From NCBI RefSeq assembly GCF_000003815.2, contig NC_049994.1, forward strand, positions 10,831,751 to 10,895,750: DNA of 64,000 nucleotides, given 5' to 3'. The position numbers were made by a program, and so were the translations under genes. Below are positions 1,085-60,768 of this stretch, one piece after another. The notes beneath the pieces are model-generated. The model was not told the DNA's origin, ran no database searches, and saw only the letters and a list, made by a program, of their open reading frames with translations. Position 1 is the stretch's first letter; each line of letters starts with the position of its first letter. The DNA comes from Branchiostoma floridae. Lineage: Eukaryota > Chordata > Leptocardii > Amphioxiformes > Branchiostomatidae.

Positions 1085-4000
1085 GTGTCCAAGAACTAGC
1101 CACAAAGACACTTCACATCCAGTCCAAACGGTTTTACCTGGATGTCAAACAGAACCGACGGGGCCGTTTTCTCAAAATAGCCGAGGTGAGTAGACCACAA
1201 TAAGAAGAAGAATAAGACGTATTATGTAGAACAATAAGAAGTACTAGTACTCTTTGTTTCGGAAGTCTTGTGTACTTTTATTTTTATTTCACTGAAGAAA
1301 GACAGAGGATGCAGTGTGAAACGTTCGTATAAATTTTGTATATATAACCAGCAGTAAGGATTGATTTAACTACATGTTATACCTACTTTCTGGATGACTC
1401 AGCATTCACAGGAAACATTGAGATTCATATTTTCCCAATGTCACATAACTGACATAGATGTTTGCACTGATAAATTGACAGAGACATACATGTATGTGTC
1501 ACCCTCAGTCAGAAGAATTTCATGCGTATATGAAAATTAAAGCCACGTCTGACATGTAAATCGCTTTCTACATTATACTCCAGATTCTCAATGCATCCTT
1601 TGTTTGTGATATATTCGTCTACGCCTGCTATGTAATGTTGGCTTACGGCAGAATTGCAGTGGAATCCATAATTACACATGCACAATGAATATGATCAAAG
1701 TATGATATCCAGCCATGGTAAAAAATGGCAAGCTTTCAAATGTAGTCTACCAACGAGTGTGTGCTTGCCAGGAAAATTAAAACCAGCCTTCACAATATGC
1801 TTTACTGTTTCCAATGCACAATTGAATGTCCAATGCACAATTGAATGTCTTAACTTCTTAGAAGTACCTTATCCTGGGAATTGGAAAGAGAATTTGGAAT
1901 GGAAAAAGCTACGAGTTTCAATATACGGTATTCCCCTCAGGCACGAGATGCTGAAGAATTTGTTCTTCCCTACGGCTATTGTAGCATGGAATTCGCTATT
2001 GTCAGGAGTATATTCACAAGATAGCTTTATCAAGTATTATTAAGAGTTAGGCATGCTGGACTGACTTCTGACAAGTCATTTAATATATACAAGGCCACAC
2101 TGACTTGATTCTATGGATGACATCCGCATGCGCATTACTTTTCGTCTGTTCTCTTGGAAAAATACCTCCTCTGAGGCTTGACAGAAAAAACAGACCGGAA
2201 AAAATCAGTGGATCGGATGTTGGACCAATTAAAAAATAGCAGATTATACTGGCAGGCGTTCAATATTGTGTTTTGAGGCTTTATTAGTTCAAGATAATAA
2301 CAAGAGTGAAGTGGACGAGAATTGATAGTTATTTTTACCTTTACCAAGTTTCTACAGTCAAGCTTGGTTTAACTTAAAAGAGGCAGATAGCGTTGTTTAC
2401 GTGAAGATAGGATACTCCACCAAACATTCCTTTGTATCAAATTGGACCATTGTTTTGAGTATCGCCCATTCTTAAACAATTACGTCCAGGTGCAGGTCCG
2501 GACCTTGACCTAATCCTTTGGGCCTGGACCTGGACAGGGGCCTTCAACATTGACATGTCACCCACAGTGCTTCCCACTGCACATGCACAGTCCACACAGT
2601 GAACTAGCCTATTGTCAGGACAGTATCTCTGCTTGGTAATTTTAGAAACGATCCATCTGAAATCTTGTCTTTCCCATACACAGGTCGGTGCTGGTGGCAA
2701 CAAAAGCCGTTTAACACTTTCAATGTCAACAGCAGCAGAATTTCGTGATCATCTCACAGACTTCAGTGAGCATTATGCACAGCTAGGTAAGTCAGGACTC
2801 GACTAAAATTAGAGGCCTTGAATTCAAAATGATAGACAATGACAATCACAAGGATCTTTATTGCTTATCCATGGCCAACATGGGCTATTAAAAATATAAT
2901 CAAAATGCATTCAGATAACTAAAGTAGAAGTATAGAAAGAAACATCATATTCTATCTAAATCTACAGTCTCTTCCCTCTTCTTGAAACTTGTGTAGACAA
3001 TTTTACATTGTTTTTCCATTAAATTGTAGTCTTTAGATGACATAATGTATGTGAATATTTAATCCTTCGTAAAATGTGCATATGTATGTATGGTCTAGTT
3101 TAAAAGAAATGTAGCTGTACAATGTTCAGCAACTGGGGACGCAGAAAGCAGTAGATAATGATGCATGTTGTTTTCCAATCTGTTCTGGTCAAAATTATGC
3201 CAATAAATCTGAGATCTTCATGATAAGTAAAACTGTTTATTTACCAAAGCAGAGGATCTTTTATAGTGCCACACAGCAGAAAAATGGCTTGCTTATGCCA
3301 ATAAATCTGAACGTATGAAATTAAGATCTTCATGATAAGTAAAACTGTTTATTTACCAAAGCAGAGGATTTTTATAATGCCACACAGCAGAAAAATGGCT
3401 TCCCCTTTAAGTCTGCAAGCACTAGAGGACATTAATAACAACAATACATCCAGTGTCCTCTGGGCCACTGCACAATTTTTAGAGATCGGCTGATTTTTGT
3501 ATGTGTCCCCCAGTGTGATAGTGTATACTTACAGGCAGAAAATATGTGCGATTCTCTAGCAGTTTTGAAATTCAGTGACCTTGTGGCGAACATAACAGCT
3601 TAAGAAGCTTTTGTGCCGTGTTCAGCAAGTGTTGTAACGTGACTTGACTTGATTGGTGCAGGGCCAGCCAACCCTGACAACCCTCCCGAGGACGGACGCT
3701 TGAAGAGCGAGACCATGGTCAAGGAGAACAGACGTTATTACCTGGACCTTAAAGAGAACGCACGTGGCCGGTTTTTGAGGGTCAGTGTCCAATTTGTTTC
3801 TGCTTTGAAACAGGCAAGAAAGGATCACATTAGGGGAAAACCAGGGCTGCACCAAAAGAAAAAATTTAGAGGCACAGAAGAAATTTTGTGCGCTCATAAA
3901 CCTAGAACTAAGTCGAATATAAAATCTATCTACAAACCTATTTGACTCCCTTCAAAGCTCGAATGTCATATTCTTCAAACACTGGCTTCAAAATTTACAA

Positions 4001-15455: not shown

Positions 15456-17644
15456 TCACTCCATGGCCTCAGGTATCTCACTCCCATCCACTATGAGGGA
15501 ATGTACGATGCCGTCTTTCCTCTTCCCACTGCTGACGGCCTTGACATAGCAGCCATGGTTGCCAACTGTGAAGTGGGTTTCTGTGCCATCATCAACAAAT
15601 TCACCCTGGAAGCATTGGAAAAGCAAGGACGTTATATAGAAGCGCTTTGAGCAAAATGTTGATCTCGATGTCTATTCACATTATAATTGACCAGCACTTT
15701 GAGCACGTTCTCTTTGAACACGTTCTTGAGTTATTCTCATTCACATTTGAAAGAAAATTGGCGCCTGCAGTTCCAACAAAGCTGCTTGGGGTCTACCACT
15801 CAAAAATCCAGAACACAAGATATAAAATATGGAAGTTTTGCTGCAGTACCTTAGGCAGCCACTAAGGGGCCCATTATCAAAGTTGACCTTTGTTTACCTG
15901 ACCCCTACCCACCAACCAAATATCATCAGGATCCATCCAAGGGCTCTTGAGTTATGCTGGTAACTCACAGACAGACAGACAGACAGACAAACACGCTCAA
16001 AACATGACCTTCTGGCAAAGGTGACAGATTACATAACTTGGCACCAGAGCTACATGTTGATACCTACCGCAGTCTCCATCTGTTTGCCATTACACCAGAT
16101 GTCCATGGTGTCTTTCTCTGTGTGAAGAAACAACAAACAAGTCAGACATACATGATGAGGGACTGCAGGGCTAGAAATACTTTTCTCTGCATACCTGCAC
16201 TGGTACAGGTACCACTGATAATTACCTGCCCAGACAAATTTTACCTGCACCACTCTGATCATACTAAAATTGTTCAGGAACCATTGTTACTTTTTCTTAT
16301 GTACTATGTAGGCGGTACCAGTCAATGCAACTAGTGACAATCCACATACAACTACATCATCATACATAAATTTACTATGATACGAGTATGTAGTAAATTT
16401 ATGTATAAAACCCAGTACATGGACCAATGTAGGTTAGGTGCAGGTAGACATCAGAAATATCTGCACAGTATTTTACCTACATATGCAGGTGGTATTTTGA
16501 GCCCTGGGCTGTCAGTTGGGTAGGCATGGCTTATCATTCAGGTTCAACTAAATCTTTATTCTTACTTCAACCATTCTGTTTTTCTTTAACCATCCTTGCT
16601 TGAACCAATGCCTTCTTTCTTTTTTTTTACCTGCCTTTCAGTGTATTGGGGCAGTGACCATCTCTGTCTCTGTAGCCCTTGGGCCACACAGGCAAATATA
16701 GTAGGGGATAAGCCCAATGGTAGTGGAGTGTGTTCAACTCTTGTAATCTTTCTCGTAAGTACTGAGAGTAAAGTACAGTATGTACCATTCTTTATTCAGT
16801 ATGTACCAGTTTTTGGTATGATCTGGCTGGGGTTTAAACTACCGGCCTTCAATCTGCAAAGGAGAACACTTAAAAGTTTCACCTAGTACAATTCTGGTGT
16901 CTACACCGTCCAGGGTTAGCGTCCATGTCTTGCTGGTCTTGGATCGGTTTTCGATGAACTTCTCCAGGGATTTCCCGTCCACGTCCAGCGTGTACTGGTA
17001 CGCAAACCCGCTGACGGCCTCGATGAAGATGACGGCCTTGTGGCCCTTGCCTATCGTGAAGGACTCTTTCCCCACCAGCTTGAACATCCAGTTTCTCCGC
17101 AACAACTCCTGAGGAAATAAACGTTGTATGTATTAAATCATGGTCAAGTCTGTCATCATGGTAAGACACCTGTTTCTGCACATTTCAGATGGATAGCACT
17201 TTCCTATGTTTTTATCTACATGAAAAATGGAGATATAGTTTTGGGTGAGTGTCTGTCAGGTGTGTGGGGGGGGGAGTCTGTGTCATGTGTGTGTGGGGGG
17301 GGGGAGGTGTGCACTGTGTGTATGTCACTCACTCACTCACACACTGTCCGGTTTAACGTGTTTCTGGATTTTTGAAGCCAGTATAATTCAATAACCTCTT
17401 GATGGTTTACAATGATATTTAGTATGTGGGTTAGCTATATATATAGGATCATTTGCATAATCAGAATATTTCATGGAGGTATGAGGTCTCCCAACTCTTG
17501 TTTTGTACGGTGCCGCTTACGTACCTTGTTATCGACGGTGACGACTCTCTTGCCCGTGGTTGTTCCGTGTTCAAACTGAACCTTGTGCACGCCGTCGCTT
17601 AGCGCCACCTCCCACACCGCAACCACATCGGACATGGCGGCCAT
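15456..17644 (-). CDS. FAIM, Fas apoptotic inhibitory molecule 1 (complete, 4 exons)
   Basis: FAIM is a cytosolic protein that protects cells from death-receptor-induced apoptosis and is reported to prevent protein aggregation. Exons on the minus strand are 17644-17525, 17108-16883, 16117-16068 and 15605-15456 (stop at 15458-15456), all GT-AG. The predicted protein is 181 residues against 179 for the human short form. Hallmarks in order are VAVWEVALSDGVHKVQFEHG near the N-terminus, NWMFKLVGKESF, SGFAYQYTLDVDGKSLEKF, MDIWCNGKQMETA, and the last exon with TETHFTVGNH and SGKRKDGIVHSLIVDG. The start is the ATG at 17644; a second in-frame ATG three codons on (17635) is an alternative. Exon 2 ends in phase 1 and joins cleanly to exon 3. 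The introns hold a hAT-like MITE (16166-16506), a repeat fragment (15746-16024) and a G/T-rich microsatellite. The gene is convergent with Pur-alpha and divergent from the giant acidic gene. Confidence 0.96.
15746..16024. repeat. Fragment of dispersed repeat family R1 (FAIM intron 3)
   Basis: Shares long stretches with 19600-19960: GGCGCCTGCAGTTC, CTGCTGCAGTACCTTAG, CCCCTACCCACC, TTGAGTTATGCTG, then an (ACAG)n run and CTGGCAAAGGT at the end. It is the 3' portion of the family whose fuller copies are at 18861-19966 and 49641-51271. It ends about 44 bp from FAIM exon 4, counted on the plus strand. Confidence 0.75.
16166..16506. mobile_element. hAT-like MITE with central palindrome (FAIM intron 2)
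   Basis: The left end CAGGGCTAGAAATA and right end TATTTTGAGCCCTG are imperfect inverted repeats. In the centre TACATAAATTTACTA (16363-16377) is the perfect complement of TAGTAAATTTATGTA (16391-16405). Several TACCTGCA/GCAGGTA motifs occur at both ends. No clean 8-bp target duplication is visible. It is 341 bp long and non-coding. Confidence 0.65.
17255..17345. repeat. G-rich and GT-rich microsatellite with CACT run
   Basis: GTGTGTGGGGGGGGG occurs twice, followed by alternating GT and CACTCACTCAC. It lies in FAIM intron 1. No function inferred. Confidence 0.85.
17440..17505. repeat. R1-family terminal fragment beside the FAIM exon 1 donor
   Basis: The text TTTGCATAATCAGAATAT, then TTCATGGAGGTATGAGGTC and AACTCTTGTTTT, matches 63110-63158 and the inverted end at 49641-49675. 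It ends about 20 bp from the FAIM exon 1 splice donor (minus strand, 17524). Confidence 0.7.
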
Positions 17645-21516: not shown

Positions 21517-22454
21517 TAGTACTATCGCAAAGTTGTTGTTTTACCTTTATCTAACTTTTATACATCTTCAGCCTAAGCCGTTTTTCAAGATGTCAAGGGT
21601 GGGGCAGGTCAGGTATCTTGCCTTCCTAATAGCACACACACAAAAAATACAATTCAACATTCCATAAACAATTCAACATTCCAGAAATACCAAGGTTAAC
21701 CGGTTGCTAATAAGCACCAACAACAAATTGCCAACAAAGCGTATAAAACGAATACACGTACAGATACATGTTCGTGTATATGAATTTTTATAGGGTTCAC
21801 CACAAAACAAGGCTCAATGCAAGGAGTCACTCATACGTTTTTGGTTACTATACTGTATTGTGACGACAGATATTTGTTTTTAAAACTTTTTAAATAGATT
21901 GTAACCCCCACAGGGAAGCAATCCCATGGAAGCTTCTTTCATGATTATGTAGTTTTAGGAACGAAGCTATCGGCTTATTTACAGATCTGTCAATAAAGCG
22001 TGATTTCCCTCTCTGTCGAATGTTACAATTTCAAAGTTAGTCACCTTTCCCACTGATCATGCCAATGGGGTTGAAAAGATCATACCGAGGTCCTTTTCTT
22101 TTCTACGCTTTGTATTTTGTTTCATACGTCTCTTTCCCGAAGTCAAAAGTACGAGTCGTTTTCTGATGTTTATGATTCGTGCTCCACTATAACCTTCGGT
22201 CCGCCTGCCCCGTTTGTCTGGATGCAGACTGAGGCTAAAGCCATTGTCCTGTGACGGAATGCTCTTCCCTGTGAACCACCTGCGGGCAAACGGGACCTGC
22301 GTATTCGGGCCCAACAAGCGAGAGACAATTGTTTAGGTGTGCTGGCGACGTGGCAGAAGCTAGAAGTGGTTACGCCCATTGATAGGCTGCTAACATATCG
22401 ACATTCCAGACTAACGCGCGAACTCTAACACTCTGAGACTCATTCTGACCAATA

Positions 22455-25400
22455 ATGATTCGTCAGAGAACGTCCAAGCACGAGGTTATCAAGTATGTCG
22501 TTGTGGATAGGAGTCCGGGGAAGTCTTCGTCGGACGGCGGTGGTGCTTCGCCCGGGACAAGCTCTACCGGTGGGACGTCTTCAACCGGACTTACAGAAAC
22601 ACAACAAGACGTCTTGAGCAAGGATGTCGTACAGAAAGAACATCTTAGCGAGGTGGGGACTCTGGGGCAACCGGGGCACAAGGTAAGAAGTGTCCAAAGG
22701 TGGATCTGTAACTTACTGTGGTTTAAACAAAATGTCAGCAGATCCACAAATGTTCAATGTCTATAATGGAATATCACCCGAGGCCATATTGTATAGCTCG
22801 AACAAGTCCAACTTGTTTTGCAAACAGCGAACCCATGTATACAAAAATAAGGGATAACACAGGAGGGAAAACACGTACACGATGTTTTCGTCTACAACAA
22901 GTCGGATACTTGTTACTTCTAGACAGAAGATAGCACCAAATAATTATAAACGGCATGCTACATACTCGTAGTTGTGGACATACATTTAAATACATAATGT
23001 TGCTACTTTATGGCGAATCTCGATTCATAGAAAACATGTTTGAGTTGTTATCTTATGTGACCTACAAACGTTTCCTACCTCTTGTAGTCATGAGTTGATG
23101 GCAAAATATATCTATCTCGGCACAAAATAACAGATGGTGTGATAATGCTAAAGGGTGTGCAAAGAGGTGGGGGGGCATCATAGCGTAAAAGGGTTACAAA
23201 TAGCATAGGGCTAATTAGATATGAAATCTAGTGTAACATAGAATATACATGTGTTAGGGAATGTGTGTACAGGTATCGTATAGTAACTATCATTTCAATC
23301 TGTCTTCTGTCAAAGTCCGATAAAGCAAAACTGCCATTCTAAACCAGTGATCATACACAGTCGGACTGACACCAAGAAAAAACTATGATTAAGAACACAA
23401 CAGAGATCGCACGTGTGTGTAAACAAGAAACTGTATCACTTTCAACTCAAACATTGTAGGCTAGTTTAGATTTAAGAAAAGCATGTTTTGTTGCGCTTTC
23501 AATGACCTGAATCATAGACAAAAGTGCAGTTGCATTTTAGGTATGCATTAGGATGATGCCCTAGAATGAGCAGTAAGCCTGTTAGCCGGAGGGCTCATTG
23601 AAGTATCGTATACACATTGTAAACAATCAACTGAACGATACAATGTTACTGCATAGGAAATGTCGTATCTGAACCGTACCTTTGTCCGCCTTAGCTGAAT
23701 ATACAGCACACTGATGATATTCTTACACTGGTCATGGTAGGCAGTACAGGTGTTATGTATAATGGACACAGGTCTGGCGTACTGTGGAAATTCCGCTGCT
23801 TTTAGTTTTATAGGAACGAACTAGACTGGGACGTCTATTTTTCACTTGCAGTCCTATAACGGTACTTTTAAACAACATTCAATATAGTGGCAATAATTCA
23901 ATAAATAAAGCCAACATATTTGTACTCTCCAAACAGAGGTTCACATGTGTTTTGACGTGCTTTAAGTCGTTTTTATGATTTCTATTTTGTATCGTTTAAA
24001 AGAGACCACGACAAAAACGCCTCAAACGCGCCAAAAAAGCCAGCCTGGCATCCAGCCGTACATACAAGTATTGGCAGAGAGGACAGAAGAGACTCGGGAG
24101 CTATACTACGGCTGAATACTAGGCTAGCGCCTAACCTCTGCTTTGAGAGTAGCATAATTGGTGTATGGTCATGCTACGAGTAATGCGACAAATAGTATAT
24201 TAGCTCGTTTTATGTCTGCCATGTTTGCTACGACTCATACTAAAAGTAATTTAACATTGTTATCCCCATTGCGTCTTTTCAGACACAGGAATCCTCTCAT
24301 GTGACACCGGTCGCATCAAATGAAAGACGACAACAGACCACACCGCTGAATGACACATTGGGTGCACAGGGCAACGATGACTTACAGGGAAAGTCTAAGG
24401 ACAGTGGAAGATTCCAAACACATCCGAACGCTGATCCAAGTTCTGATGATCCAGATTCCACTGATCCAAGTGCTACGTATCCAAGCTCTGTTAATCCAAG
24501 TTCTGCTGGTCCAGATTCGGATCAAGAGGAAGATTCGGACACGGTAGCCTCCTCAGAAACTGCCTCCTCCTCTGCCATTAGTGACTTTGAAATTCAGATA
24601 CCGTCCGGCGAACCTGGCATAGAGTCATTCAGAGTCATTATATATAAACTGAACGGGCCAGACGACAGGGAGGATTCAGGTCAAGGGGACAGCAATGAGG
24701 AAGACGTGCAGCTCACTTCATCGGACTCTCAACAACAAGGAAATCAACCATCACCCGATACAAAGTCCGAAAACGTGCAGGGGATTGTTGAAAAGACACA
24801 CGAAACCATAACACCGACGGGAGAAACATTGTCGGGTGATGAGGAAGATCCATTAGATCCTGAGAAGAAGACACAGCAGCAGGGGGAAACATCAAACTTG
24901 CAGGAGGAAACATTAGACAAAGAGAGGGAGACATCAGAAAGACAAGAGGAGTCATCGGGCCAGGAAAAAGAGACAACAGACAGGCATGAGGAATCAGACA
25001 GGTCGGCAGACAAAACAATAGACAAACAAAAGGATACATTAGATATAAATGTGAAGGCATCACATAAACAGAGGGGAACAACAGACAGGGAGGATGGGGC
25101 ATTAAAAAGGCCGAAGGAAACATCAAATGAAAAGGAGACAACTTCAGATAAAGATAAAGAAACACCAGACGTACACAATGAAACATCGGACAAAGTGGAG
25201 GCGTTAAAAAGGCTAGAGGAAAAGGTTAAAAAGTTGGAGGAAACATATGAGAAGGAGAAAACATCGGATACACGAAAGGAAGTATCAGGCAGGCAGGCGG
25301 AGACATCTGACAGACAGGAGGTAACATCAGGGAAAGGGGAGGAAACACCTAACAAACTAGAGGATACATTAGGAAAAGGGCACGAAATATCTGACAGGAA

Positions 25401-28400
25401 GGGGACATTAGAGAAAGGGGAAGAAACATCTGACAAACACCGGGAGGAGACCTTAGAGAAAGAAGAGGAGACATCTAAGAAACATGGGGAGACATTAGAG
25501 AAAGAAGAGGAGACATCTGTCAGGCAGGAGACATCGGATAAAGGGAACGAAACAGCCGACAGACAGGGCGAGACATTAGAGAAAGAGGATGAAACATCTC
25601 ATAAACAGGAGGAAACATCAGATAAAGGGGAGAAAATATCTGACAAACATGACAGACAGGAGGAGACATTGGCGAAAGGGGAGAGAACATCTGGCAGGGA
25701 GGAGACATTGGAGAAAGGGGAGGAAACATCCGACAAACAGGAGGAAACATCTGATAAACAGGAGGAGACATTAGAGAAAGAAGAGGAGACATCTGTCAGG
25801 CAGGAGACATCGGATAAAGGGAAAGAAACAGCCGACAGACAGGGCGAGACATTAGAGAAAGAGGATGAAACATCTCATAAACAGGAGGAAACATCAGATA
25901 AAGGGGAGAAAATATCTGACAAACATGATAGACAGGAGGAGACATTGGCGAAAGGGGAGGGAACATCTGGCAGGGAGGAGACATTGGAGAAAGGGGAGGA
26001 AACATCCGACAAACAGGAGGAGACATCAGATAAAGGGGAGGAAACATCTAACAAACAGGAGGAGACATTAAAGAAAGGGGAGGAAACATCAGTCAGACAG
26101 GAGACATCAGATAAAGGGAAAGAAACAGCCGGTAGACATGAGGAGACATTGGCGAAAGAGGAGGAAACATCTGATAAACAGGAGGAGACATCGGATAAAG
26201 GGAAGGAAACATCTAATAGGGAGGAGACATTAGAGAAAGGAGAGGAAACATCTGACAAACAAGGGGAGACATCTGACAAACAGGAGACATCAGAAAGGGC
26301 GGAGAGAGCATTAGATGAAATGGAGGAAATATCGGACAGACAGGAGAGAACATTAGGGGAGCTAGAGGAGACGATAGATAAGCTGGAGGAAAGATTTCAG
26401 AAGGAAGACGGAACATTTGACACAATAGAAGATATTCTAAGTGGGCAAGAGGAAACATTGCAAAAGCTGGAAGATACATTCAACAAGGAAGAGGAAACAA
26501 TAGACAAACTGGAAGAAATTATAGACGGACAGGAGAATATATCAGACAGAGAGGACGGAGCAGTAAAGAAGGAAGATGAAATATCCGACAAAGAAACCGA
26601 AGATAGGCAAAGAGATGTTTTAGGTACTGAGAGGAAAATACCAGAGAGGCAGGACCAAATCTCGTTCGGGCAGAGGGGAGGTTTAGATGAACAGAAACCG
26701 CTATCAGACAGGCAAGAACAGGCTACAGACGTCGAGAAAAGAACCGGCAGCGAAGAGAGAAAATGTGGACAGGATGGTGTATCCAAGAGTCAGGAAATAC
26801 GATCAGACGGACAGGGCAATCAGATAGGTAACGTTAGCCAAAAGGAAAATAAAGACGGGCAAGTTTCAGGTAGTCAGAAGGAAACACCGGACCAGTCTGA
26901 GGACGCATCAAGTAAACAGAATGAGTCACTAGACAAGATAGATGAACCATCAGACACACAACCAGAAGTATCGACCGGAGACGAAGAAACCCCGAATAGG
27001 CAAGAGGATGCGTCTGGTATACGATCAAAATCCCCAACGACGCAACAGGAGCAGGGAGACAAGACAGAAGACTTGCCAGAGGGAGGAGAGAAGCCAGAAG
27101 GACACAGAGGAGAGATGGGCGAACAGGGAGTAACATTGGATGCACATAGCGAAGCACAAGACAAGCCAGTGGAAACACCCGACAAACAAAGCGAAGTAAA
27201 ACGTCAGGAAGAAGCGTTGTCCGTTCAGGATAAAGGAAAGAACGAGGAAACGATGGACAAGAAGGGGAAAACATTAGATAAGAAAGATGAGTCATTAGAC
27301 AGGTCGGGTGAGACATTTGATAGGGAAAGTGGGAAATTAGTCAGTCCGGGCGAGGCATTAGACAAGAAGAGGGAAACATTGAACACGCAAGGAACCGACA
27401 TCGAAGAGAGAAAATGTGGACAGGATGGTGTATCGAAGAATCAGGAAATACGATCAGACGGGCGGGATAACCAGATAGGTAACGTTAACCAAACAGAACG
27501 TAAAGACGGGCAAGTTTCAGGTAGTCAGAAGGAAACACCGGACCAGTCTGAGGACGCATCAAGTAAACAGGATGAGTCACTAGACAAGATAGATGAACCC
27601 TCAGACACACAACCAGAAGTATCGACCACAGATAAAGAAACCTCGGGTAGGCATGATAATACGTCTGCAATACAAGAGCAGGGAGACAAGACAAAAGACT
27701 CGCTACATAGAGAAGAGAAGCCAGAAGGACAAAGAGGAGAGTCGGAAAATCAAGGGGAAACATTTGACGGACAACAGGAAACACACGACAAGCCAGGAGA
27801 AACACCCGACAAACAAAGCGAAGTAAAACGTCAGGAAGAAGCGTTGTCCGTTCAGGATAAAGAAAAGAACGGGAAAACGATGGACAGCAATGGGGATACA
27901 TTAGATAAGCAAGATACAACATTAGGCAAGCCGGGTGAGACATTAGATAGGGCTAGGGAGAGTGGGGAATTAGACAGTCCGAGCGAGGCATTAGACAAGG
28001 AGAGGGAAACATTGAACATGCAAGAGGAAACATCACATGCACAGGAGTCATTAGACAGACAGGGGGAGACATCAGGCACGCAAGGGGAGACACCAGATGA
28101 GACGGAAGCTTTAACCACGCAAGGAGAAACATCAGATGAGAAGGCAACATTAGATAAACAGACAGAGGAGACATTGGACAGGAAGGGAGCGACATCGAAC
28201 AAGCAAGAGGACGCATCGGGCAGACAGGAGGAAGAGACAGTGGAGAAAACACCTGAGATGCGGGAGGAACAGGTAACACCATACGGGCAGGATGGAGCAG
28301 TAGATAAGCCGAAGGAAGCGTTGGACAAGCTTCAAGAAATATCAAACGAGAAAGAGGGGAAACCGACAGAAGCTACAGACATAGAGGAAGAAACGTCACA

Positions 28401-31400
28401 TAGACAGGAGGAACTATCAGACAGGCGACCACTAGGAAAGCCGGGAACGTTAGACAGTGAGGAGAGAATACCAAACACACAGGATCAAAATTCAGACAAA
28501 CAGGAGGAGATATCAGGCAAGCAACCGGACAATCCAAAGGAAGATGAAGAAGGGAACATCCCAAGACACCAGAATGATAGATCAGCCAGGAGAGGGACAA
28601 TATCAGATAAAAAGGAAGAATCAACACACAAAGACGGAGAATCATCGCACGAACAAGAGGGAACATCAGACAAACACGAGGAAACATCGGGCGAGGCCAA
28701 AACACCAAACAAACAGCAGGGAATATTAGATAGAGAAAAGGACGCATCAGAGAGGAAGGAGGAAACAACGGATAGTCTGACCAAAACGCCCGCCATACAG
28801 AAAGAACCATCAGCCCCACCAAAGGAAATATCAGACAGGAAAGAAGAACCGTCAGACAAACCAACAACAGCTTCAGACGAGCCAAGGAAAGATAAGCTTG
28901 GGGATGTTTCGGGGACTGAACAGGAACAAACGGAGGACATTGAGGAGAGAATATCAGATGTGCAAGGAGTACCGGACAGAGACGATGAAACATCAGAAAA
29001 GATGGAAAAGACAGCAGACAGCAAGAGGACAACTTCAGGATCACCGAACCAAGCCGACGCCAGCTCATCAGGTCCAGATACCGACAAAACGGAAGGCAGG
29101 GGTTCGGATCTGTGGGCTTCTGGGAAAATGGGCAAAATGGGTAGAATAACAAGAAAGAAAGGAAAAAGAATTACAGAGGAGCTAAAGCACAGATTCAGAG
29201 AGTACGAAACCGAAGGTCAAAGCCCAATGGAGACATCAAACAGAGAGGACGAGCCATCAGAGAAACCAACGAAAACATCAGATGTGCAGAAAGAACCATC
29301 AGCCCCACCAACGGAAATGTCAGACAGGAAAGACGAACCGTCAGACGAACCAACAACAGCTTCAGATGAGCCAAGGAAAGATAAGCTGAGGGACGTTTCG
29401 GGGACTGAAAAAGAAACAACGGGAGATAGGGAGGAAAAAACATCAGATGAGCACGGAGTGCCGGGCAGAGACGATGAAAGATCAGAAAAGACGGAGAAGA
29501 TAGCAAACAGGGAGGGGACAACGTCGGGACCACTGAACCAAGCCGACGCCAGCTCATCTGGTCCAGACACCGACAAAACGGAAGGCAGGGGTTCGGATCT
29601 GTGGGCTTCCGGGAAAATGGGCAAAATGGGCAGAATAACAAGAAAGAAAGGAAAAAGAATTACAGAGGAGCTAAAGCACAGATTCAAGGAGTACGAAACC
29701 GAAGACCAACGCCCAATGGAAACATTAAACAGAGAGGAAGAGCCATCAGAGAAACCAACGAAAACATCAGACAATACTTCATACATGGCGGAAGGGGTGA
29801 TAGAAACACGAAAGACACCGGAGAAGGACATGGAATCGTCAGATGCAGAAGACATGCAGAGGGAAGCGGCGGAAAATCCAATGGAAACATCGGACAAGGA
29901 GCAGAAAACATCAGAAAAGCCGAGAGAAACATTAGACATACAAAATAGAGCGTTAGAAAAGCAGGAGACGTCAGGAAAGACGGAGGAAAAATTAGATGAG
30001 CTGGATGCAACATCACACAGGGGGAGGGAACGGGGTGAGGAGAAAGAAAGATCAGACATGGAAAAAGAAACATCACACAAGCTGAAGCAAACATTGGATA
30101 ATCAAGAGGCGATGTCGCATTCCCGTGAAGAGGAAACATCAGAAGAACAGAGGAACATACTGGACAAGGAGGACGAAACATCGGATAAGGAAGAGGAAGC
30201 ATCAGACCTAGAAGAGGAGGAGACATTGAAACAAAGGATGGAAGAGAAAAGGCGACTCTTTGAAGAATATGGTATATTTGATGACAGCGATGTCGATGAA
30301 GAAGACGAACTGGACGAGAATCAGCCAGACACTGAACAAGACGCTTCAAACGAAGACAATGCGTCTGAGATGAATACTGACAAACCTAACCAAACAAGTG
30401 GAGAAAATATAGATGAAGAAGCTCGAAGAAGAAAGCTATTTGAAGAGTACGGCATATTTGATGACGACGATGACGTCACGGTACCTGTCAGTGACGTAGC
30501 CATAGCTGACGTAGTCCATCCGGATCAAGGAGAATCGAATCCACTGCACAGTATACCTGAGTTAGAGGAAGATTCTGGTCTAGGTGCTGATCAGCGCATA
30601 ACATCTTCGCAAGAAACATCAGATCCAAAACAGGATGAGGGTACCTTAGAGACCCTTTCGGAGGAATGGTCTACTTCAGGCGATGGCAACAAAGTTCCCA
30701 CAGACGTTTCAACTCACAAGCAGCAGCAACTGACAGCTCAGGACGTCGTGTTAGAAGAAGCAGTCAGTACTGATGATAGCGATGTCGACGAGATTTTGCG
30801 AGAGGTCGGGGGTCTAGACCAAGCTCTAGAGATCGAAGCATCATTAGCCGAATTCGACACGACCGTCGATGAAGCAGATAAACAAGCCTCAGATGAGGAG
30901 AATGAAGTCACCAGTGGTACCGTAGCTTCGGGTCCAGAAACTTCCCAAAGTGGGAAGTTTGAAGACTTCTACCCTCAGTTTCACTACCCGACGTCTCCCT
31001 TCGCTGCGAATGCTGAGCAAGGATTATCGTATTATCTTGAGCAGGAAAGATCCTCCGAAACCCCTCGTGAAGGCGACGAGGAGTCCAAAACAAAGGGAGA
31101 CTCAGTAACAACGTTACAGTCGACACCAAGTGACACTGTACATGTTAAACTAACGGAAGAGAAAGGCAAAGATGTTGACAATGAATTTGAAATGGCAGAG
31201 GACAAACAACCTTCAGGTTCTGAAACCTTGCCGGGGGCGAGTTCAATGGACACAAGAAAAGCGCAGCTACCGGCCCAAGAAGACGCCTACTCATCAGGTC
31301 CAGACACCGACAAGACGGAAGGAGCTAGTCCGGATCTATGGACGTCTGGAAAAATGGGTAAAATGGGTAGAATAACAAGAAAGAAAGGGAAAAGAATCAC

Positions 31401-33108
31401 AGAAGAGCTAAAGCAGAAGCTCAAAGAATATGAAACTGAAGGCCAAGCAGACGAAAATGCCCCTTCTGTACAATTTGAGGTGCCATCACAAAAACATGAT
31501 CCTAGAGTAGAAGTAACACAGCAAGGTCGCGAAGACATGCCTGCAACCTTGGCATCGGTGTCAAAACCAGAGGATGAAAATAAAGATACTGAGGAAAATA
31601 AAGACACTGTGGACAAATCGGAGGATGATGAAGAGTCCGTAACGCAGCCATTGCTGTCACAACCTGAGGGTAGCAACGAAGACAAAGATAAAGCAGAGCT
31701 TGGTGTCGAGTCGGAAAATTTGCCATCGGTGTCGCAATCAAGGGGCAGAAACAAAGACACTAACGACAGAGCAGAGGGTGTTGACGAGTCATCAACGCAA
31801 CTATCGGTGTCACAGTCAGAGAGAAAAGACATTCATGACGAAGTAGAGGTTAGCAATGAGTCAGAAACAGTGGTATTGGCGTTACAAGACTCTGAAGAGA
31901 AAACTGCAATTGACAACAGGTCAACAACAATGGCATCGGCGTTAAAACAAAAAGAAGGTAGTGATAAAGGAACTGATGTTGGTGACAAGTCAGCAAAGCT
32001 ACCGTCGGCGTTACAACAAGAAACAGAGAATAGCAACAAAGACGATAAAAAGGAGACCGTCGATGAAAAGCCATCCACGCTGTCCTCGGCGTTACAGCAA
32101 GACGATAAAGACAAGGGCACAGAACAACAGTCTGTGTCCGTGAAGACGTCTAGTCGGTCTAACAAAGAAACCCGGCGTGAGCGCAGGAAAAAGAGCAAGG
32201 AGACTTCAGCAGAACCCACCATCTCGGACGAGCCCCAGGAACAGAAAACAGCCCCCCAGCGACCTGTCCGCCCTGAACGAAAACATCTACAAGAACGACA
32301 ATCAACAGTTTCCAAGGGCAAAACCAGGACAAAGTCGGGAAGGGAAGACGACGAGGCTGAAGAAAGGACACGTGGCCAAGACAGCTTCGGGCCCACATCA
32401 GGAGACCAGTTTTCGGATGAATACACGGGTCCTCACAAGGCTTACATGTCTCGTGCCGACAGAAAAAGACTGACTAACCAGCGCAAGAAAGCAGAGCGCG
32501 ACGCCAAGCTACAAGAAGAAGTTCTACATGCGGATGCTGAGACGTCGGATCAAGACTCACCAAACACTGCAAGCCATTTCAATCTGGACGACAAAAACGT
32601 CGTTGCTGTTGAAGAGGAAGAGCAGTTTAACATCGTAGACGTTGCCGTTTCCTCAATTGAGGACGAAAGTGAATCGTCGGGAAGTAGCCGGACGAGACAG
32701 CGTTCCGTCAGTTCTTCGTCACGTGATACAGAAACGACTAGAGCTGTCGACAGGACGACTTCCAGAGCAGACAAAGAAGGAGATTCGTCCAGTGGCGATG
32801 GCAAACGTCCAAGACGTACACGCACACGGTCCAGGCAAAGGACAAGTCACAAACATGAAACGAACAAGCCCAAGAAGGGAGGACATAAGACCGCGTCTCG
32901 TCCAGCAGATACGACAGAAACTAAAGAGCCTGGTAAAAGTGACATGGAGAAGTCTACGAAGGAAGCAACTCTCGACGAAACGGCTAAAATGAACCTGGTT
33001 CTTGGAATGGGAATGCTGACGACGGTGCTGTTTTCGGTCCTGTTGTTGTGGCCTGAGATATCGGCGTGGCTGTTGTTACTGTTATCACAGAAACACAAAG
33101 AACAGTGA
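22455..33108 (+). CDS. Giant repetitive acidic protein with C-terminal hydrophobic anchor (unrecognised)
   Basis: Two exons, 22455-22682 (76 codons, ATG start) and 24283-33108, join in phase 0 over a 1,600-bp GT-AG intron. They give about 3,017 residues. I do not recognise the family. The N-terminus has a Ser/Gly/Thr-rich stretch. Residues about 190-800 are a degenerate seven-residue repeat of the type EETSDKQ/EETLEKG. Larger in-frame duplications cover about 478-661, 894-1327 and 1582-1907. A basic module, GKMGKMGRITRKKGKRITEE, occurs three times (near residues 1690, 1853, 2432), each after a DTDK motif. LFEEYGIFDD occurs twice (near 2068 and 2128). The last 100 residues are Arg/Lys-rich and end in a hydrophobic stretch from residue 2979 (MNLVLGMGMLTTVLFSVLLLW, written here as one segment of 21; then PEIS and AWLLLLL), closing with KHKEQ. 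Cysteine and aromatics are rare, so most of the chain should be disordered. It is probably a tail-anchored or hairpin membrane protein; function unknown. Confidence 0.85.
24041..24127. mobile_element. Short MITE in the intron of the giant gene
   Basis: CAGCCTGGCATCCAGCCGTA (24041-24060) is the imperfect complement of 24107-24127 (TACGGCTGAATACTAGGCTAG-type end; only its core TACGGCTG and AGGCTAG are exact). The element is 87 bp long, GC-richer than its surroundings, and lies about 155 bp before the splice acceptor at 24282. Confidence 0.6.
25486..26037 (+). repeat. 276-bp in-frame tandem duplication within the giant gene
   Basis: The block beginning around 25486 recurs 276 bp later (92 codons) with only a few substitutions, for example GGGAACGAA against GGGAAAGAA and GAGAGAACA against GAGGGAACA. 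The unit itself is built from the 21-bp (7-codon) repeat. The near-identity indicates a recent duplication and likely length variation between alleles. Confidence 0.85.
26735..28036 (+). repeat. In-frame duplication of about 650 bp within the giant gene
   Basis: The motif RKCGQDGVSK is encoded near 26758 and again near 27409, an offset of about 651 bp. Downstream, DKQSEVKRQEEALSVQDK is encoded at 27181 and 27808 (offset 627). The copies have therefore acquired in-frame indels. They are more diverged than the 276-bp and 489-bp duplications. Confidence 0.8.
28798..29775 (+). repeat. 489-bp in-frame duplication carrying the basic GKMGKMG module
   Basis: QKEPSAPP is encoded at 28798 and again at 29287 (offset 489 bp, 163 codons). 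Both copies run through TTASDEPRKDKL, GPDTDKTEGRGSDLWASGKM and EEPSEKPTKTSD-like ends. A third, isolated and more diverged copy of the DTDK plus basic module lies at about 31288-31446. Confidence 0.85.
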
Positions 33109-33342: not shown

Positions 33343-33498
33343 TAGCCTCTACCAGGCTCCGATGATCGATGGCAAAATAGTAGAAATTGGACAAATCGAG
33401 TCAATAGTACGCTAGGGGAGTCGGAAGGCCATAGGAGTCAGTATCAACTCTGAGAACTCTATTTGTCCTATTTGATCCACGGAGCCTGGTAGAGGCTA
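33343..33498. mobile_element. MITE with perfect 19-bp terminal inverted repeats
   Basis: TAGCCTCTACCAGGCTCCG (33343-33361) is exactly the reverse complement of 33480-33498. It is 156 bp in total, non-coding, about 235 bp after the giant gene's stop codon, and may fall inside its 3' untranslated region. Confidence 0.9.
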
Positions 33499-35940: not shown

Positions 35941-35950
35941 AAGATGGCGG
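35941..35950 (+). promoter_or_regulatory. YY1-like motif over the SAP18 start codon
   Basis: AAGATGGCGG contains the ATG of SAP18 (35944) and matches the YY1 element AAGATGGCGGC often found at initiation codons of housekeeping genes. Motif match only. Confidence 0.55.
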
Positions 35951-38900
35951 AAGAGCGTCTGAAAAAAATGGCAGGCTTGGAGTCTCGAGTCGCTACAGAA
36001 GAAGAGAAACCAGAACCAGAAAAACCCGTGGACCGGGAAAAGGTTAGAAGCTTACCATCCTGCAGATGCAAAAATCTTAGATGTTTTCCATCGATAGTAG
36101 CTATTAAACGCGTGGTGGTATTCGCGTGGTGGGAGGGGGGCGAACATAATTTTTCAGTCTTGCATGCAGGGTTGTAGCCAGCCCGGAATCATTTTCCGTC
36201 CCCCCACCTTTGACTGAAAATCGTATCGAGCGCCGTAGGCGCGAGATGTCGCGCCAAAGGCGCGACGTTCCTAGGGGGGTCCGGGGGCATGCTCCCCCGG
36301 AAAATTTTGAAATCTAGACCCTCTGAAACGCTATTTCCAGCATTTTGAGCTGTTAATACATCTGTTTTGGTAAAAGAAATTACACGAGGGTTTTACGCTG
36401 GATTTTATTTAGGAAAGGGGCCGATGCTACCGCCACCGCAGTGATCGCACAGATTGCTGGTATGATTGTAAGTGTGTTACACAGCTGCACTTCTATATTG
36501 TATAGAATTTACACAGAAAAGAAACAGCACGTTTAGTACAACAAAAATTTATTACATATCTACGTCCTACGAGAAATATACACAAGCACAATAGCACATA
36601 CAAGGGATAACGGCGCCCTCACATCGGCGAGAATAAAACATTTTCAACAACGGCCGTTTGCGTCTTACTTAGTTAAGTCGTATCAAAGTTCACGTAGATT
36701 CCTACCGTCGCCGATGAAAGAAACCGTCGATTAACACAACACACTTCATCTGTCAGTTCATCTTAACGAGGTAAGTAGCATTTTAACACTTTACAAAGAT
36801 TGGAAACATAGACGGCGAGTCGGCGATCATGTACAACGAATCACTTGAAAGAATCGCCCACGGTTTGATCCGGCGTGGTCCTATTATAGCGGGGTGGGAT
36901 CCCTCCCCGGAAAAGCCAGATTTTCCCCGGAATCTCCTTATATGGGGAGCGGGGTTGATCACATAGGCTCTTACTATTAACGTTAGTTGCGTCATTTCTT
37001 TTTCAGCGCGGAAAATAGAATCAATTCTCTCTGACACATTTCTAGAGCAAGGGCGGGTCGCGTTCCCAAATTTCCTGTTCTAAATTTGAAGCTCTTTGGT
37101 TCGGCAAGGTAAAGTACAAGCCACCGTAAGTTTGCATGTAAAACCCGGGCATTTCCTTTCGGGGCCCGGGCAAGCCTCGTCATGTGGCCCCGCCCACGAT
37201 GAGACCGTCGGCTTCCTTGTTGCAAAGGCAGTGCACCTTTTCGCCGACTTCATCAAAGGCCGCGGCTGTTGGTTAGAGTTTCAAACAGTCGTGTGACAGT
37301 TGACAGCGAACTTCGTATGCTACGTGATTATTCCTTGCACTTTCCCACAGCGGTGCTTCTACAAAATATTTATCAGACTGTAACCCACATGTTTTATAGA
37401 ATAGAATCTGACGCGGAACAATGGTTTCGCCGGGTATTTTTCTTGAAACATGTCCGTTGGTATATCGTCTGACAGCAAAGCGGCAACTTATGGATGTAAG
37501 ACCGTCAACAACAGTCGCACGGCACGGCGGCTAACGGCGCATCGAAGATACTAGCGCTATAAATAAGCGCTTCAACTTCGGATGGCAAACCGGACAATAG
37601 TTAACGTTACTGTTAAACTGAGTAAAGTTTGTTGATTACGAGTTTTTAGTTGACTTTGACGCTTTGACTTGAAATATTGTTATGTCAAACTGAAAAGAAG
37701 TTAAGTGACTGCTACTATTATCGTAGATATGGCCCTAAAAACCTGATAAAATAAGCCTTCTGAATAGCCTGAAATGCGGACCCCTGCCCCGGCGGCCGGC
37801 GCTGTGAAAAAATCTTTTTAATTTTTGGAGATCTTTGCACGATTTTTAGTTTTTGTTGTATCTTTAGATATCGATTTTCTCCGTCACAGAGGACGGAATG
37901 GGCAAAATATTTTTCCGTCCCCAGCTGCAAAATTCCGTCAAAGGACGGAAGGACGGGCGCTGGCTACAACCCTGCTTGCATGTGTGCCGAATTTTGACAA
38001 CAAAGGAGAAAAAGAAACTGGCGTAAAACGCAAAACAGCAACGTTGCTGGTATCACAAGTGGCATATTATGATGCTTTCTTGCATTTAATCTAGTCGTAG
38101 AGTAGCAATGAAGAAGAAGTTATAAAATTTTAACCCACTTTTATTTCTGGCAGTGCCACCCCCAACACCCCCACCCCCACTGTATAGTATAAAGGGACCA
38201 CTACCACATTACCAGTAGTCTTCAAGTAGGCCCATGTAACAGTCTTTACTGTAACTGCTTTATTGCTTCACCGCTGCTTGTCTAGTACCTTTGTGTTCGT
38301 GCGTGTGTGTATAAGAAATAGAATAAACCCCCGGACTGAGGATGAAGCACAAAAAGCTTTTCTATTGTTGCGCAAACTGTGCAAGGCAGTTTCCCTGCAA
38401 TTCGCATGTTTAGCCATGCACATTGTGTCACGTCTACTGGCCCGACATGTCGATAAGTGCAGAGGTTTGACACTTGAGGCTCCCTCAGTCATAGTCTTCA
38501 AAGGCACGAGGCTGTTGGCTTTACTATTATTAAAGTATTATTTACTATTAACATCACTGAAAATGGACAAGTACAATCCCTTACTAGTTACAGCATGTCA
38601 GAGCTGCGGCAGACCCTAGACAATGCACATGATTTATATATGCCTATTTCTTGTCTTCACACAGACTTGTCCCCTGTTGCTCCGTGTGTTCTGCAACCAG
38701 AACAGGTTCCACAGGTACGTAAACATTGTGACTACGCTACTCAGTTACCAGTTAAGGGTCGACTTGTTACTTACTGTAATTCTTGATTTTTCAATGGACT
38801 GTTATGTTCACGGTTTTCACGTTGACGACTGTAACGTGAACTTATCATTACTGATAGTGATAACAAATAATTCACAGCCTTTTTTTATGTGCACTTGCCA

Positions 38901-57610: not shown

Positions 57611-59421
57611 ATGTCTTCGGAGAAACTTGTCATGGAGCAAGGTGAGAAAAAAATTTCCTTACCAAATCTTTAACCCGTCCCGTTATCAATAGAATAGCAA
57701 TATATTTTAGAACATGCTCACTTTCTTCTGATACTTGCTAGTTGTTAAACTTTGCCAAGAAAGAGGAACTTCACAATAGTTTTCTTATATCTTCTCCCTG
57801 CCACCTAACCCTGTAACCAATAGAGAGTTGGTAGCCAAACTGCTAGCTTTTTCAATTCAATGTACAAAAGGTTAAAATGCGTCATAATTCATGTAGGTTT
57901 CGCCCCTTCCCTGGCTGGTCTGGGCCTGACCCGGCCGTACAAGAGGCAGAGCGGGCGAAGGACGGGCCTGGTGCTCCTGGCGGGAGGCTGTCTGGGCGGG
58001 GTGCTGGTGTGCGCCGTCCTCATGCCGCTGGTCTACGTCACCATGTCAGACCTGCAGCTGGAGGTTACCGAGCTCAGAAACCTCGTGGTAAGCCCCTGAC
58101 TTAGTAACCTCAAACGACGGGAAAAAACATAGATTCGTTCAAAGCAATGATCTTGTACTTCTCATTACTAGCTGCGTAAATTCTTACTACTGACGCTATT
58201 TCCGTAAGGTGACACCTATTCGTGGCCAGGTAATTGGCAAATACTGGTCCAGAACCAAGCAAACATACCGCATTGCCATTGGCATGTTACCTACAGTTCA
58301 CTTTCTACGTATTTCATATTTGTCTAAGACATTGGTCAACTCCCCACAACAATGCTCCTTTATGACACGAAAAGTGTAGGAAGCCATGCATGAAGAAGAA
58401 TGGGCCAGTCAATAGAATTGGATTGATCAAATACACGTCCCGTATTGTTAAGGATCATCAGGAATAGATGGACTAAATGTTCTTCTCTACTTGCCTGTTA
58501 TAGTTGCTCATTTTTAACTCGCCTATATAATACAACAGATCTCCAACTCTATGTCGACCGCCACATCGTCTACAGAGGACCAAGGGAACGGCACTGCTGT
58601 GGGCGGGGCGCACAGGGAGCGGAGACAGGCCGACTTGACGCCGGAATTCGGAGACGTGTACGTGCGGTGGGGCAGGGAGGATTGTGGTGGAAACGCCGAG
58701 ACCATCTACGCCGGTAAGCAATGTTACATATATTAACGTGGAAATGCATTTTAATTTTCTCCTTATTCACGCCCTAGAGCAGGTCACATCATTATCACAA
58801 TCATCCTGTCAATAATCTTCAGTGGGCATTGATAATGATTAAAAATTTAGAATTCCAATCGAACTTTTCACAGGTGTTGTGGGGAGCGGTTGGTACCACC
58901 ACTACGGAGGAGGAAGCGACTACCAGTGCCTGCCCCTGGAAGGTGTGGAGTGGAACAACCCAGTGTCTGGTTATCAGCACAATAGCTATATGTATGGGGC
59001 AGAGTACGAGGTTAATAGTAACGGCTACTTCTCCACAGACAACATGGAGTCAATCAACAACCCCTTGAACTATGACGTCCCCTGCTCTGTGTGTCATGTG
59101 GCCGGTCGGTCTGCACACGTCATGATCCCCGCCCGCCTGTCCTGTCCCCAGGGGTGGAGTAAGGAGTACAGCGGGTACCTGATGTCATCTAATCACGCCC
59201 ACTACAGCAACAAGAACTTCATCTGTGTGGACGGAGCTCCCAACTTAAGGGCGGGATCATCTGCTGACCTGAATGGAGCCCTGCTGTACCTGGTGGAGGC
59301 GCAGTGTGGCTCTCTTCCGTGTGGGCCTTACATCACAAGGACAAACTATAAATTTCACAAACTTTTACACTTACCTAGGAGTAGACATCACACCATCAGG
59401 ATCATTCCACCGTGCCAATAA
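57611..59421 (+). pseudogene. Short-chain-collagen-C4-like gene copy 4, last exon split by a retrotransposon
   Basis: Exons are 57611-57641, 57897-58087, 58539-58713 and 58874 onward. The first three are intact (MSSEKLVMEQG; anchor exon with RQSGRR; linker with NGT and TPEFGDVYVRWGREDC). In exon 4 the domain is normal through QCGSLPCGPYI. At about 59336 the gene then runs into inserted retrotransposon sequence and stops after about 26 foreign codons at 59419-59421. The lost piece, encoding the terminal GYELTCVVCTK, survives as an orphan at 60769-60809 beyond the insertion. Two of the ten ectodomain cysteines are therefore missing from any product. Apart from this the frame, splice sites and upstream block look functional, so the break is probably young. 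It may be polymorphic, or may still yield a truncated protein. Confidence 0.85.
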
Positions 59422-60768
59422 ACAACTTAGAGTAAAAGCTATGCGAGCATCCTTTAAACTTAAATCATTGCTAGCATCAAATCATAATCCCTCAATATCT
59501 CTTGCCCTGGATTTATTCAATAGCCTAATCAAGCCGATCTTGCTCTATTGTGGGGAAATACTTGGAACAAACGCTCAAGGCAAAGAGCTCATTCTAAAAG
59601 GAATAGAGGAATATCCGAATGAAAGTGTTAGAGATACGGTCTCAAACATCATTTCCCCGATACTTGGACCAGGTATAGATATACTTAAGGCTACCCGTGT
59701 TGGTAAAAAATCTGATACACCATCTACCCGTCCTGTTCTTGTTCGATTTAGGAAGTATACTGACAAACTGAATATCATATATCAATCAGACGCCCTTAGA
59801 AATCAGAACGTAACACCAGAGCAGCCTATTATTTCTTACGAGATTCCCGATCTAGAACATGTACTACTTAACTACTGTAAGATATTACTTAGCGTTCCTA
59901 GAAGTTCTGTGAATGCCGCCGTACTGGGCGAACTAGGTATGTTTCCACTTTATATAGACACCCAGACACAACTGATTAAATATTGGCTTCGATTACACAA
60001 TATGTCTAATGATAGAATTGTTAAAAAAGCATACGACATTGCTGTTGTACAAGAACATGAATGGATTACACATGTACAAGATATGCTATGCAGGCATGGT
60101 TTCCAAAATGTTTGGCTAAACCCTAATGTCGATGCCAAATATTTTGGAAACATGTTTAAGGAACGCCTAAAGGACACATTTCTTTCGAACTGGAGACAAA
60201 AGATAAGAAACTTTAGTAAACTGGCAACATATTCGAAAATTAAAACAACCTTCGCTCTAGAAAAATACCTGTTATCAATTCAAAACAGATCATTTACTAA
60301 TAGCATAACAAAACTAAGGATTGGAGCACATGCTTTGGAAATTGAAAAGGGTCGTCACAAAAATATACCAGCTGAAAAGAGAATGTGTCCCATCTGCAAA
60401 GACAGTATTGAAGATGAATATCATTTCCTGATGATATGCCCTTATTACAATGAAGGAAGGAAAAAGTTATTGACAATGTATAACAACGGAACAACATTAC
60501 CTAAAACAAGCAGAGAAATATTTGATGTACTTCTATCATGTCCTGACTCCATATCTGTGCACCTAGGCCAATTTATATATAATGCTATGCAAAAGAGAAG
60601 TAGTGCTTTAACAATGTGAAATACACTATGCCGCCATATATTATTCATATATCTTGCTAGACTAGTATACTGATGTAAGTAGTTTGTAGTTGTTAGTTAC
60701 ACGTAATTTGCCATACATTGTACCTGTTGCAATCGTTGTGCAATAAACTTGACTTGACTTGACTTGAC
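59336..60768 (+). mobile_element. 5'-truncated non-LTR retrotransposon inserted in copy 4
   Basis: A 1.43-kb insertion interrupts the coding exon, with a short duplication TCA at 59333-59335 and 60769-60771. It encodes the C-terminal part of an ORF2-type reverse transcriptase polyprotein, open from about 59340 to the TGA at 60617-60619. The part begins just after the catalytic core (FYTYLGVDITPSGSF, a typical post-catalytic RT motif) and later has a CX2CX8HX4C zinc-finger-like motif near 60385-60440. The 3' end is a short AT-rich tail plus (CTTGA)n repeats (60746-60768). Microsatellite-like 3' tails and 5' truncation fit the CR1/L2-type group of LINEs; the exact clade is uncertain. Its frame is uninterrupted, supporting recent insertion. 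Confidence 0.88.

Follow-up and report, generated by a model that had tools for sequence, protein, structure and literature searches.

What kind of protein is encoded by an uninterrupted exon of 8.8 kb for which no named family was found, and what might such a protein do? The question is raised by a giant gene on the plus strand of a 64,000-nucleotide stretch of the Branchiostoma floridae genome (contig NC_049994.1, positions 10,831,751 to 10,895,750), here called the window, in which all coordinates below are counted. It looks like a real gene, apparently present in a single copy, with a product of about 3,000 residues predicted to be mostly unfolded and strongly acidic. This real-looking giant protein would be of a known kind, the giant tail-anchored protein, and it has more structure than an earlier note on this DNA had recognised. 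As to its function, we infer, with a probability of roughly one half, a tail-anchored, cytosol-facing tether or docking arm on the endoplasmic reticulum (ER)/nuclear envelope system, and both 'tether' and 'organelle' are to be taken in this sense. By analogy, the arm is best read as working like ANC-1 or a nesprin, with a disordered spacer and without a match to KASH, CH or spectrin domains.

Gene model, open frame and search for relatives

A first exon of 76 codons (22455..22682, residues 1-76) and an exon of 8,826 bases (24283..33108, residues 77-3017 and the stop codon) are joined in phase, as the earlier note had claimed. The first exon starts with an ATG at 22455, which has an A at -3 and comes two codons after an in-frame TGA (22446-22448), and its end and donor read AAG/GTAAGA, with the donor GT at 22683; the second exon is preceded by the acceptor sequence TCTTTTCAG and runs without interruption to a TGA at 33106-33108. 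Both splice sites, assessed by eye and unscored, are of phase 0, and the joined product would have 3,017 residues and a mass of about 336 kDa. Because the earliest in-frame ATG of the second exon alone corresponds to residue 756, the product requires a 5' exon, be it the first exon or another one.

Since this gene model is read from the DNA sequence by itself, and since long open frames can also occur in DNA rich in repeats, it has to be asked whether the frame is merely repeat-driven and decaying or non-expressed, or the model wrong. Frames of 233-294 codons are indeed found on the antisense strand of the exon, so that composition alone lengthens frames, to about that size only. The real frame, however, is open from 24250 to 33108 (2,952 codons from stop to stop), ten times as long as any found in 200 surrogate exons from Markov models (orders 2-5, 50 per order), in which the longest forward frame averaged about 170 and never exceeded 293 residues. 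The remaining two forward frames of the exon contain 112 and 221 stops. Periods divisible by three were reported by Tandem Repeats Finder (TRF) for all 25 rows inside the second exon versus 5 of the 15 rows in the rest of the window, the rows overlapping one another. The splice signals are good by eye, and copies of internal repeats show an excess of silent over replacement changes (see below); with these points against it, we regard decay or a wrong model as very unlikely.

Relatives were sought in the assembly to which the window belongs (513,431,437 bases in 431 contigs). Six-frame searches with six protein pieces (exon 1, residues 77-284, 2060-2411, 2412-2464, 2383-3017 and the last 75 residues), together covering 1,242 of the 3,017 residues, with residues 744-2059 not searched on their own, matched this gene alone, exon 1 having one sole location; the first 2,001 bases of the second exon, used as a DNA query, likewise matched only this exon. 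Such a search scores the best candidates only, and a diverged paralogue could escape it. 'Orphan' here means that no paralogue was found and that no domain has a name; it does not mean lineage-restricted.

That no named family fits, also a claim of the earlier note, agrees with the results from Pfam and PDB, neither of which gave an accepted relative. Residues 77-3017 matched no Pfam family at E <= 1, CH and spectrin domains included (nor did exon 1 match these two), in a scan whose sensitivity is limited in repeats and which also missed the weak matches of residues 752-837 described below; PDB returned nothing for the same residues at E <= 1. When the six pieces were compared with Pfam at E <= 10, four sub-threshold C-terminal matches emerged (SOG2, eIF-3 zeta, Afaf and a pneumovirus G; best E 0.44), which we judge to be due to chance. 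The C-terminal 635 residues had no match in phages at E <= 0.01. Among the publications listed as matches, titles and abstract openings contained no report of such a protein, subscription papers mostly lying outside this coverage.

The acidic arm, its heptads and its repeated modules

The computed composition (E 16.0%, S 10.4%, D 9.9%, T 9.6%, K 9.2%, Q 6.3%) confirms the earlier description of a protein rich in Glu, Lys, Asp, Thr, Ser and Gln and nearly free of aromatics: Phe, Tyr and Trp together account for 51 of the 3,017 residues, Cys for two. Residues 1-2978 carry a net charge of -334, and 2,929 of 2,967 windows of 51 residues lie on the disordered side of the Uversky charge-hydropathy line, which supports, as a prediction from composition, a long, acidic and mostly disordered arm. 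This chain of low hydrophobicity seems to owe a large part of its length to the expansion of a 7-residue unit. Behind an N-terminal acidic region without heptads (24283..24906, residues 77-284, net charge -32, found in one place in the assembly) lies an array of ETSDKQE-like heptads (24907..26307, residues 285-751), which is supported by autocorrelation and TRF and is predicted to be disordered. Its lag-7 autocorrelation is 0.36 for residues 401-600 and 0.38 for residues 601-800 versus shuffle maxima of 0.22 and 0.20, and period 7, or its multiple 14, rises above shuffles in every 200-residue block from 201 to 1400, with its peak at 401-800.

The array is followed by a predicted coiled coil of 12 heptads (26308..26565, residues 752-837, 86 residues). 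Here heptad position a is hydrophobic in 85% and position d in 50% of cases, and the combined a/d fraction of 0.67 was reached by none of 5000 shuffles, whereas the a/d fraction of the array at 430-752, whose register is disrupted by insertions, was reached by 4,114 of 5000. A further short coiled coil at 378-405 was rejected as not significant (487 of 5000 shuffles). For residues 752-837 there are weak matches in 58 Pfam families, including several coiled-coil ones (best E 4.8e-5; the best 25 of the 58 all fall below their own cut-off), and in the PDB 14 sequences matched at E <= 1, led by a helical construct of spike S2 (E 0.0004); both results were taken as generic coiled-coil similarity. 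Coil and array share one heptad frame, which reads TIDKLEE in the former and TSDKQEE in the latter. It is a tentative thought, and one we would hold with reserve, that one heptad, varied at its two core positions, spells both a rigid coiled coil (752-837) and a disordered brush (285-751 and further on), so that evolution would have made rod into brush, or the reverse, within one membrane-anchored tether whose basic helical modules serve as multivalent docking sites, which would make it a new tether architecture.

The basic module in question has 53 residues and occurs in three copies, at 29062..29220 (residues 1670-1722, labelled DLW-SGKMGKMGRITRKKGKRITEELK), 29551..29709 (residues 1833-1885) and 31288..31446 (residues 2412-2464), all in this gene as far as the assembly is concerned. 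In spite of a synonymous divergence (dS) of 0.76-0.94 in the comparisons with copy 3, 43 of the 53 columns are invariant across the three copies, and in 15 of these 43 the codons have changed silently; the ratio of replacement to silent divergence (dN/dS, omega) is 0.13 for copy 3 versus copy 1 (p 4e-6) and 0.085 for copy 3 versus copy 2 (p 1e-8), two comparisons which are not independent. From a three-sequence alignment the module is predicted to form a 30-residue helix (predicted local distance difference test, pLDDT, 90, 96 and 90 in the blocks of positions 21-50, mean 78.6). A second motif, FEEYGIFDD, occurs at 30247..30291 (residues 2065-2079) and 30427..30471 (residues 2125-2139); its silent sites are saturated and yield no omega, and the excess of silent over replacement changes is significant (p 0.0002). 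Judged by their sequences, the three basic modules and the two FEEYGIFDD motifs appear to be under purifying selection.

The same tendency is found throughout the six pairs of internal copies that were compared by Nei-Gojobori counts and one-sided Fisher tests on rounded counts: silent changes are in excess in all six (Fisher p < 0.05 in each), and dN/dS is below 1 in all five pairs with a finite ratio, most strongly in the basic module. Selection on the protein, which the earlier note had inferred from the open frame, is in this way upheld by the repeat copies. The pairs include a 489-bp direct repeat in two copies (28795..29772, residues 1581-1743 and 1744-1906; omega 0.41, p 0.003), the 483/575 pair (omega 0.36, p 0.04) and a diverged pair of blocks, each about 220 residues long (26752..28074, residues 900-1116 and 1117-1340), for which omega is 0.61 (p 0.007; 266 aligned residues, one end poorly aligned). 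The DNA gaps in this last repeat measure 24 and 6 nt, and two other copy pairs are gap-free.

Searches with the module beyond the assembly gave no relative. In viral contigs none of 26 pattern matches, and in prokaryote genomes none of 428, was confirmed. A module profile met two sequences of virginiamycin B lyase (E 0.0005-0.0006), in which no stretch passed by itself, probably by summing weak matches in a repeat protein, and it met 2lvs (E 0.79) and periphilin-1 (E 1.5); in all these cases homology was rejected by judgement.

Basic clusters of the form K[KR]x[KR] are present in all three modules and number seven in the whole protein, and a basic Arg/Ser belt adjoins the membrane segment described below. 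One could read the modules as nuclear localisation signals (NLS), the disordered arm as a linker threaded through the nuclear pore and the belt as a ligand of chromatin or lamina, which would make the product an inner-nuclear-membrane protein. It would share with the Heh1/Heh2 type the NLS-like clusters, the long disordered linker and the membrane span, but unlike that type it has no LEM or MAN domain matched by Pfam, and its arm is presumably far longer than that of Heh2. In the yeast Heh2 system, NLS and disordered linker are reported to be required and sufficient for accumulation of a membrane protein at this site (PMC4695851). However, basic clusters are to be expected at 9% Lys; the extralumenal mass of about 330 kDa by far exceeds the limit of about 60-75 kDa for efficient passage given in PMC6359192; and 53 conserved residues, GPDTDKTEG and DLW among them, are more than an NLS needs. 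We consider this reading improbable.

The C-terminal region and its membrane segment

A single hydrophobic segment at the very end, behind an Arg/Lys-rich belt, had been described earlier, and so it was found. The belt (32695..32988, residues 2881-2978), rich in Arg, Ser and Lys, holds 26 basic versus 16 acidic residues (net +10), and the segment (32989..33084, residues 2979-3010), which is interrupted by W-P-E, reaches a Kyte-Doolittle maximum of 2.21 in 19-residue windows compared with at most 0.58 for all windows starting before residue 2970. It is the sole hydrophobic segment, ends seven residues before the C terminus and has no N-terminal counterpart, which at the level of sequence is the layout of a tail-anchored protein. 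For the last 258 residues AlphaFold2, run on the single sequence, predicted three helices (2800-2826, 2969-2998 and 3000-3016), the remainder being of low confidence (overall mean pLDDT 59.5); the first of these is a basic helix (32452..32532; block pLDDT 89 and 93, dropping to 71 at its end).

The protein closes with the tail SQKHKEQ (33085..33105, residues 3011-3017), the final five residues of which fit KxKxx. This opens another reading, in which the 32-residue run folds back at W-P-E-I-S as a monotopic hairpin, which leaves the C terminus in the cytosol and lets KHKEQ act as a COPI retrieval signal, on the surface of the ER or of lipid droplets. Lys stands at -3 and -5, as the signal requires (PMC3521961), a coincidence with a chance of 0.016 at 9% Lys, and Pro-Glu lies within the run. 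The resemblance to monotopic hairpin proteins of ER and lipid droplets, such as Erg1, would lie in a hydrophobic element that could fold back; the tail-anchor (GET) pathway can have hairpin proteins among its clients (PMC9123286). These proteins differ from ours, however, for which a kinked helix and a giant disordered arm are predicted: the final helix pair is broken at one residue only, W2999, which is closer to a kink than to a turn (single sequence, no coordinates measured), and AlphaFold2 favours the kinked helix over the hairpin. As the run and the dilysine motif are only two residues apart, and as basic residues after membrane segments are common anyway, the hairpin is rather unlikely.

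Upstream of the belt, 117 residues from the hydrophobic segment, the motif EEEEQFNIV (32611..32637, residues 2853-2861) resembles an LC3-interacting region (LIR). Anchor, net negative disordered arm and placement of the motif correspond, at the level of prediction, to the build of organellophagy receptors such as FAM134B, SEC62, TEX264 and RTN3L (PMC12431859), and the protein might likewise fragment an organelle and mark it for autophagy. The strictest LIR pattern (four acidic residues upstream) occurs in 3.4% of shuffles, but it was composed after the motif had been seen, and looser patterns with two or three acidic residues occur in 44% and 14.5% and are expected by chance, so that the LIR is only putative. 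Moreover, 2,978 residues precede the anchor, an arm about 12 times the upper end of the 47-250 residues given in the same source (RTN3L: over 800), and the conserved basic modules are extra parts which a receptor function leaves unexplained. We would give this reading little credit. A pattern scan of the protein for FFAT, SxIP, PxIxIT, PPxY and RVxF found none of them.

Giant size and a C-terminal membrane segment also recall KASH-type LINC proteins, of which the product might be a giant nesprin relative. KASH peptides are C-terminal and end in PPPx. No KASH hit was obtained from Pfam for the whole protein, the sub-threshold matches of the C-terminal piece are unrelated to KASH, and the sequence lacks a PPx-type end. 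That the protein is a KASH protein is hardly credible.

The proposed tether and its surroundings

We return to the favoured reading, a tail-anchored tether on the ER/nuclear-envelope system. Its nearest likeness lies in the layout of the giant KASH proteins (ANC-1 of C. elegans, nesprin-1/2, MSP-300), which combine a very long cytosolic arm with one C-terminal membrane span, although their spacers are helical and the proteins have up to 8,545 residues, whereas the spacer here is predicted to be disordered and acidic in a protein of 3,017. The Glu-, Lys- and Ser-rich short-unit repeats of neurofilament-H and of MAP1B/Futsch-type proteins are thought to be entropic spacers, as proposed here, but they lack a membrane anchor and have another repeat unit. 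ANC-1 itself contains internal tandem repeats and is reported to act from ER membranes largely without its own KASH and CH domains (PMC8139857).

In the proposed mechanism, the C-terminal helix would insert into the ER/nuclear-envelope membrane after synthesis, while the other residues, about 2,970, would remain cytosolic. The disordered stretches might act as an entropic, phosphorylatable spacer whose contour length would be near 1.1 um if each residue adds 0.38 nm. A scaling law would give the arm a coil size of several tens of nm. The coiled coil may pair two arms, and the basic helices may catch an acidic surface of a partner, be it a second membrane, a microtubule or a nucleic-acid complex, by which the protein would tether or space its organelle relative to that partner. 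Of the earlier proposal, a long disordered tether or spacer on an organelle membrane, the disordered acidic arm and the C-terminal anchor have stood; a mere spacer it is not, in view of the three basic helical modules, the coiled coil at 752-837 and the repeated motifs.

Several points weigh against this mechanism and call for caution. The reading is drawn from sequence and prediction. A 32-residue hydrophobic run containing Pro-Glu is unusual for a simple single span, and calmodulin, importin or nucleic acid would be equally plausible ligands of the basic helices. Choice by eye enters twice: the coiled-coil region was selected in this way after a moment scan, and so were the repeat pairs, in the translation. 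A large share of the arm between the motifs appears to evolve fast, as the omega of 0.61 in one pair suggests, and at best its spacing rather than its sequence would be constrained.

The usual picture of an organelle-anchored tether is a rod built from coiled coil or from spectrin repeats. An arm made mostly of acidic disorder, with helical modules nearly unchanged over nearly one synonymous substitution per site, would allow a test, in nature, of disordered polymers as substitutes for rods in spacing and docking. Searches have a new handle in the 53-residue basic module, whose presence in other deuterostomes, like that of FEEYGIFDD, would name a family.

Upstream of the giant gene, on the opposite strand, lies an exon of a FAIM1 gene (16839-17132, Pfam PF06905, E 2.7e-28). 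An inverted repeat at 33343-33498, beginning 235 nt past the stop codon and consisting of 25-nt arms that are 92% complementary and 106 nt apart, looks like a miniature inverted-repeat transposable element in the presumed 3' untranslated region. About 2.8 kb downstream, on the plus strand at 35944-36042, a stretch (MAEERLKKMAGLESRVATEEEKPEPEKPVDREK) may represent exon 1 of the next gene. Between 42803 and 63663, five frames that are related to one another, four of them on the plus strand and one on the minus strand, share variants of DYQCLP, GWSKEYSGYLMS and FICVDGAP, and four of the five also SLPCGPYISGYELTCVVC; they have no Pfam match at E <= 0.01, and we see in them a likeness to lancelet proteins that carry the annotation short-chain collagen C4-like. 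One of the five is overlapped at its end by a 448-codon frame (59273-60619, plus strand) that is retrotransposon-like by eye and obtained only sub-threshold Pfam matches at E <= 10 (HOOK_N, E 0.06; zf-RVT, E 0.07); that copy may have been the target of a retroelement insertion.

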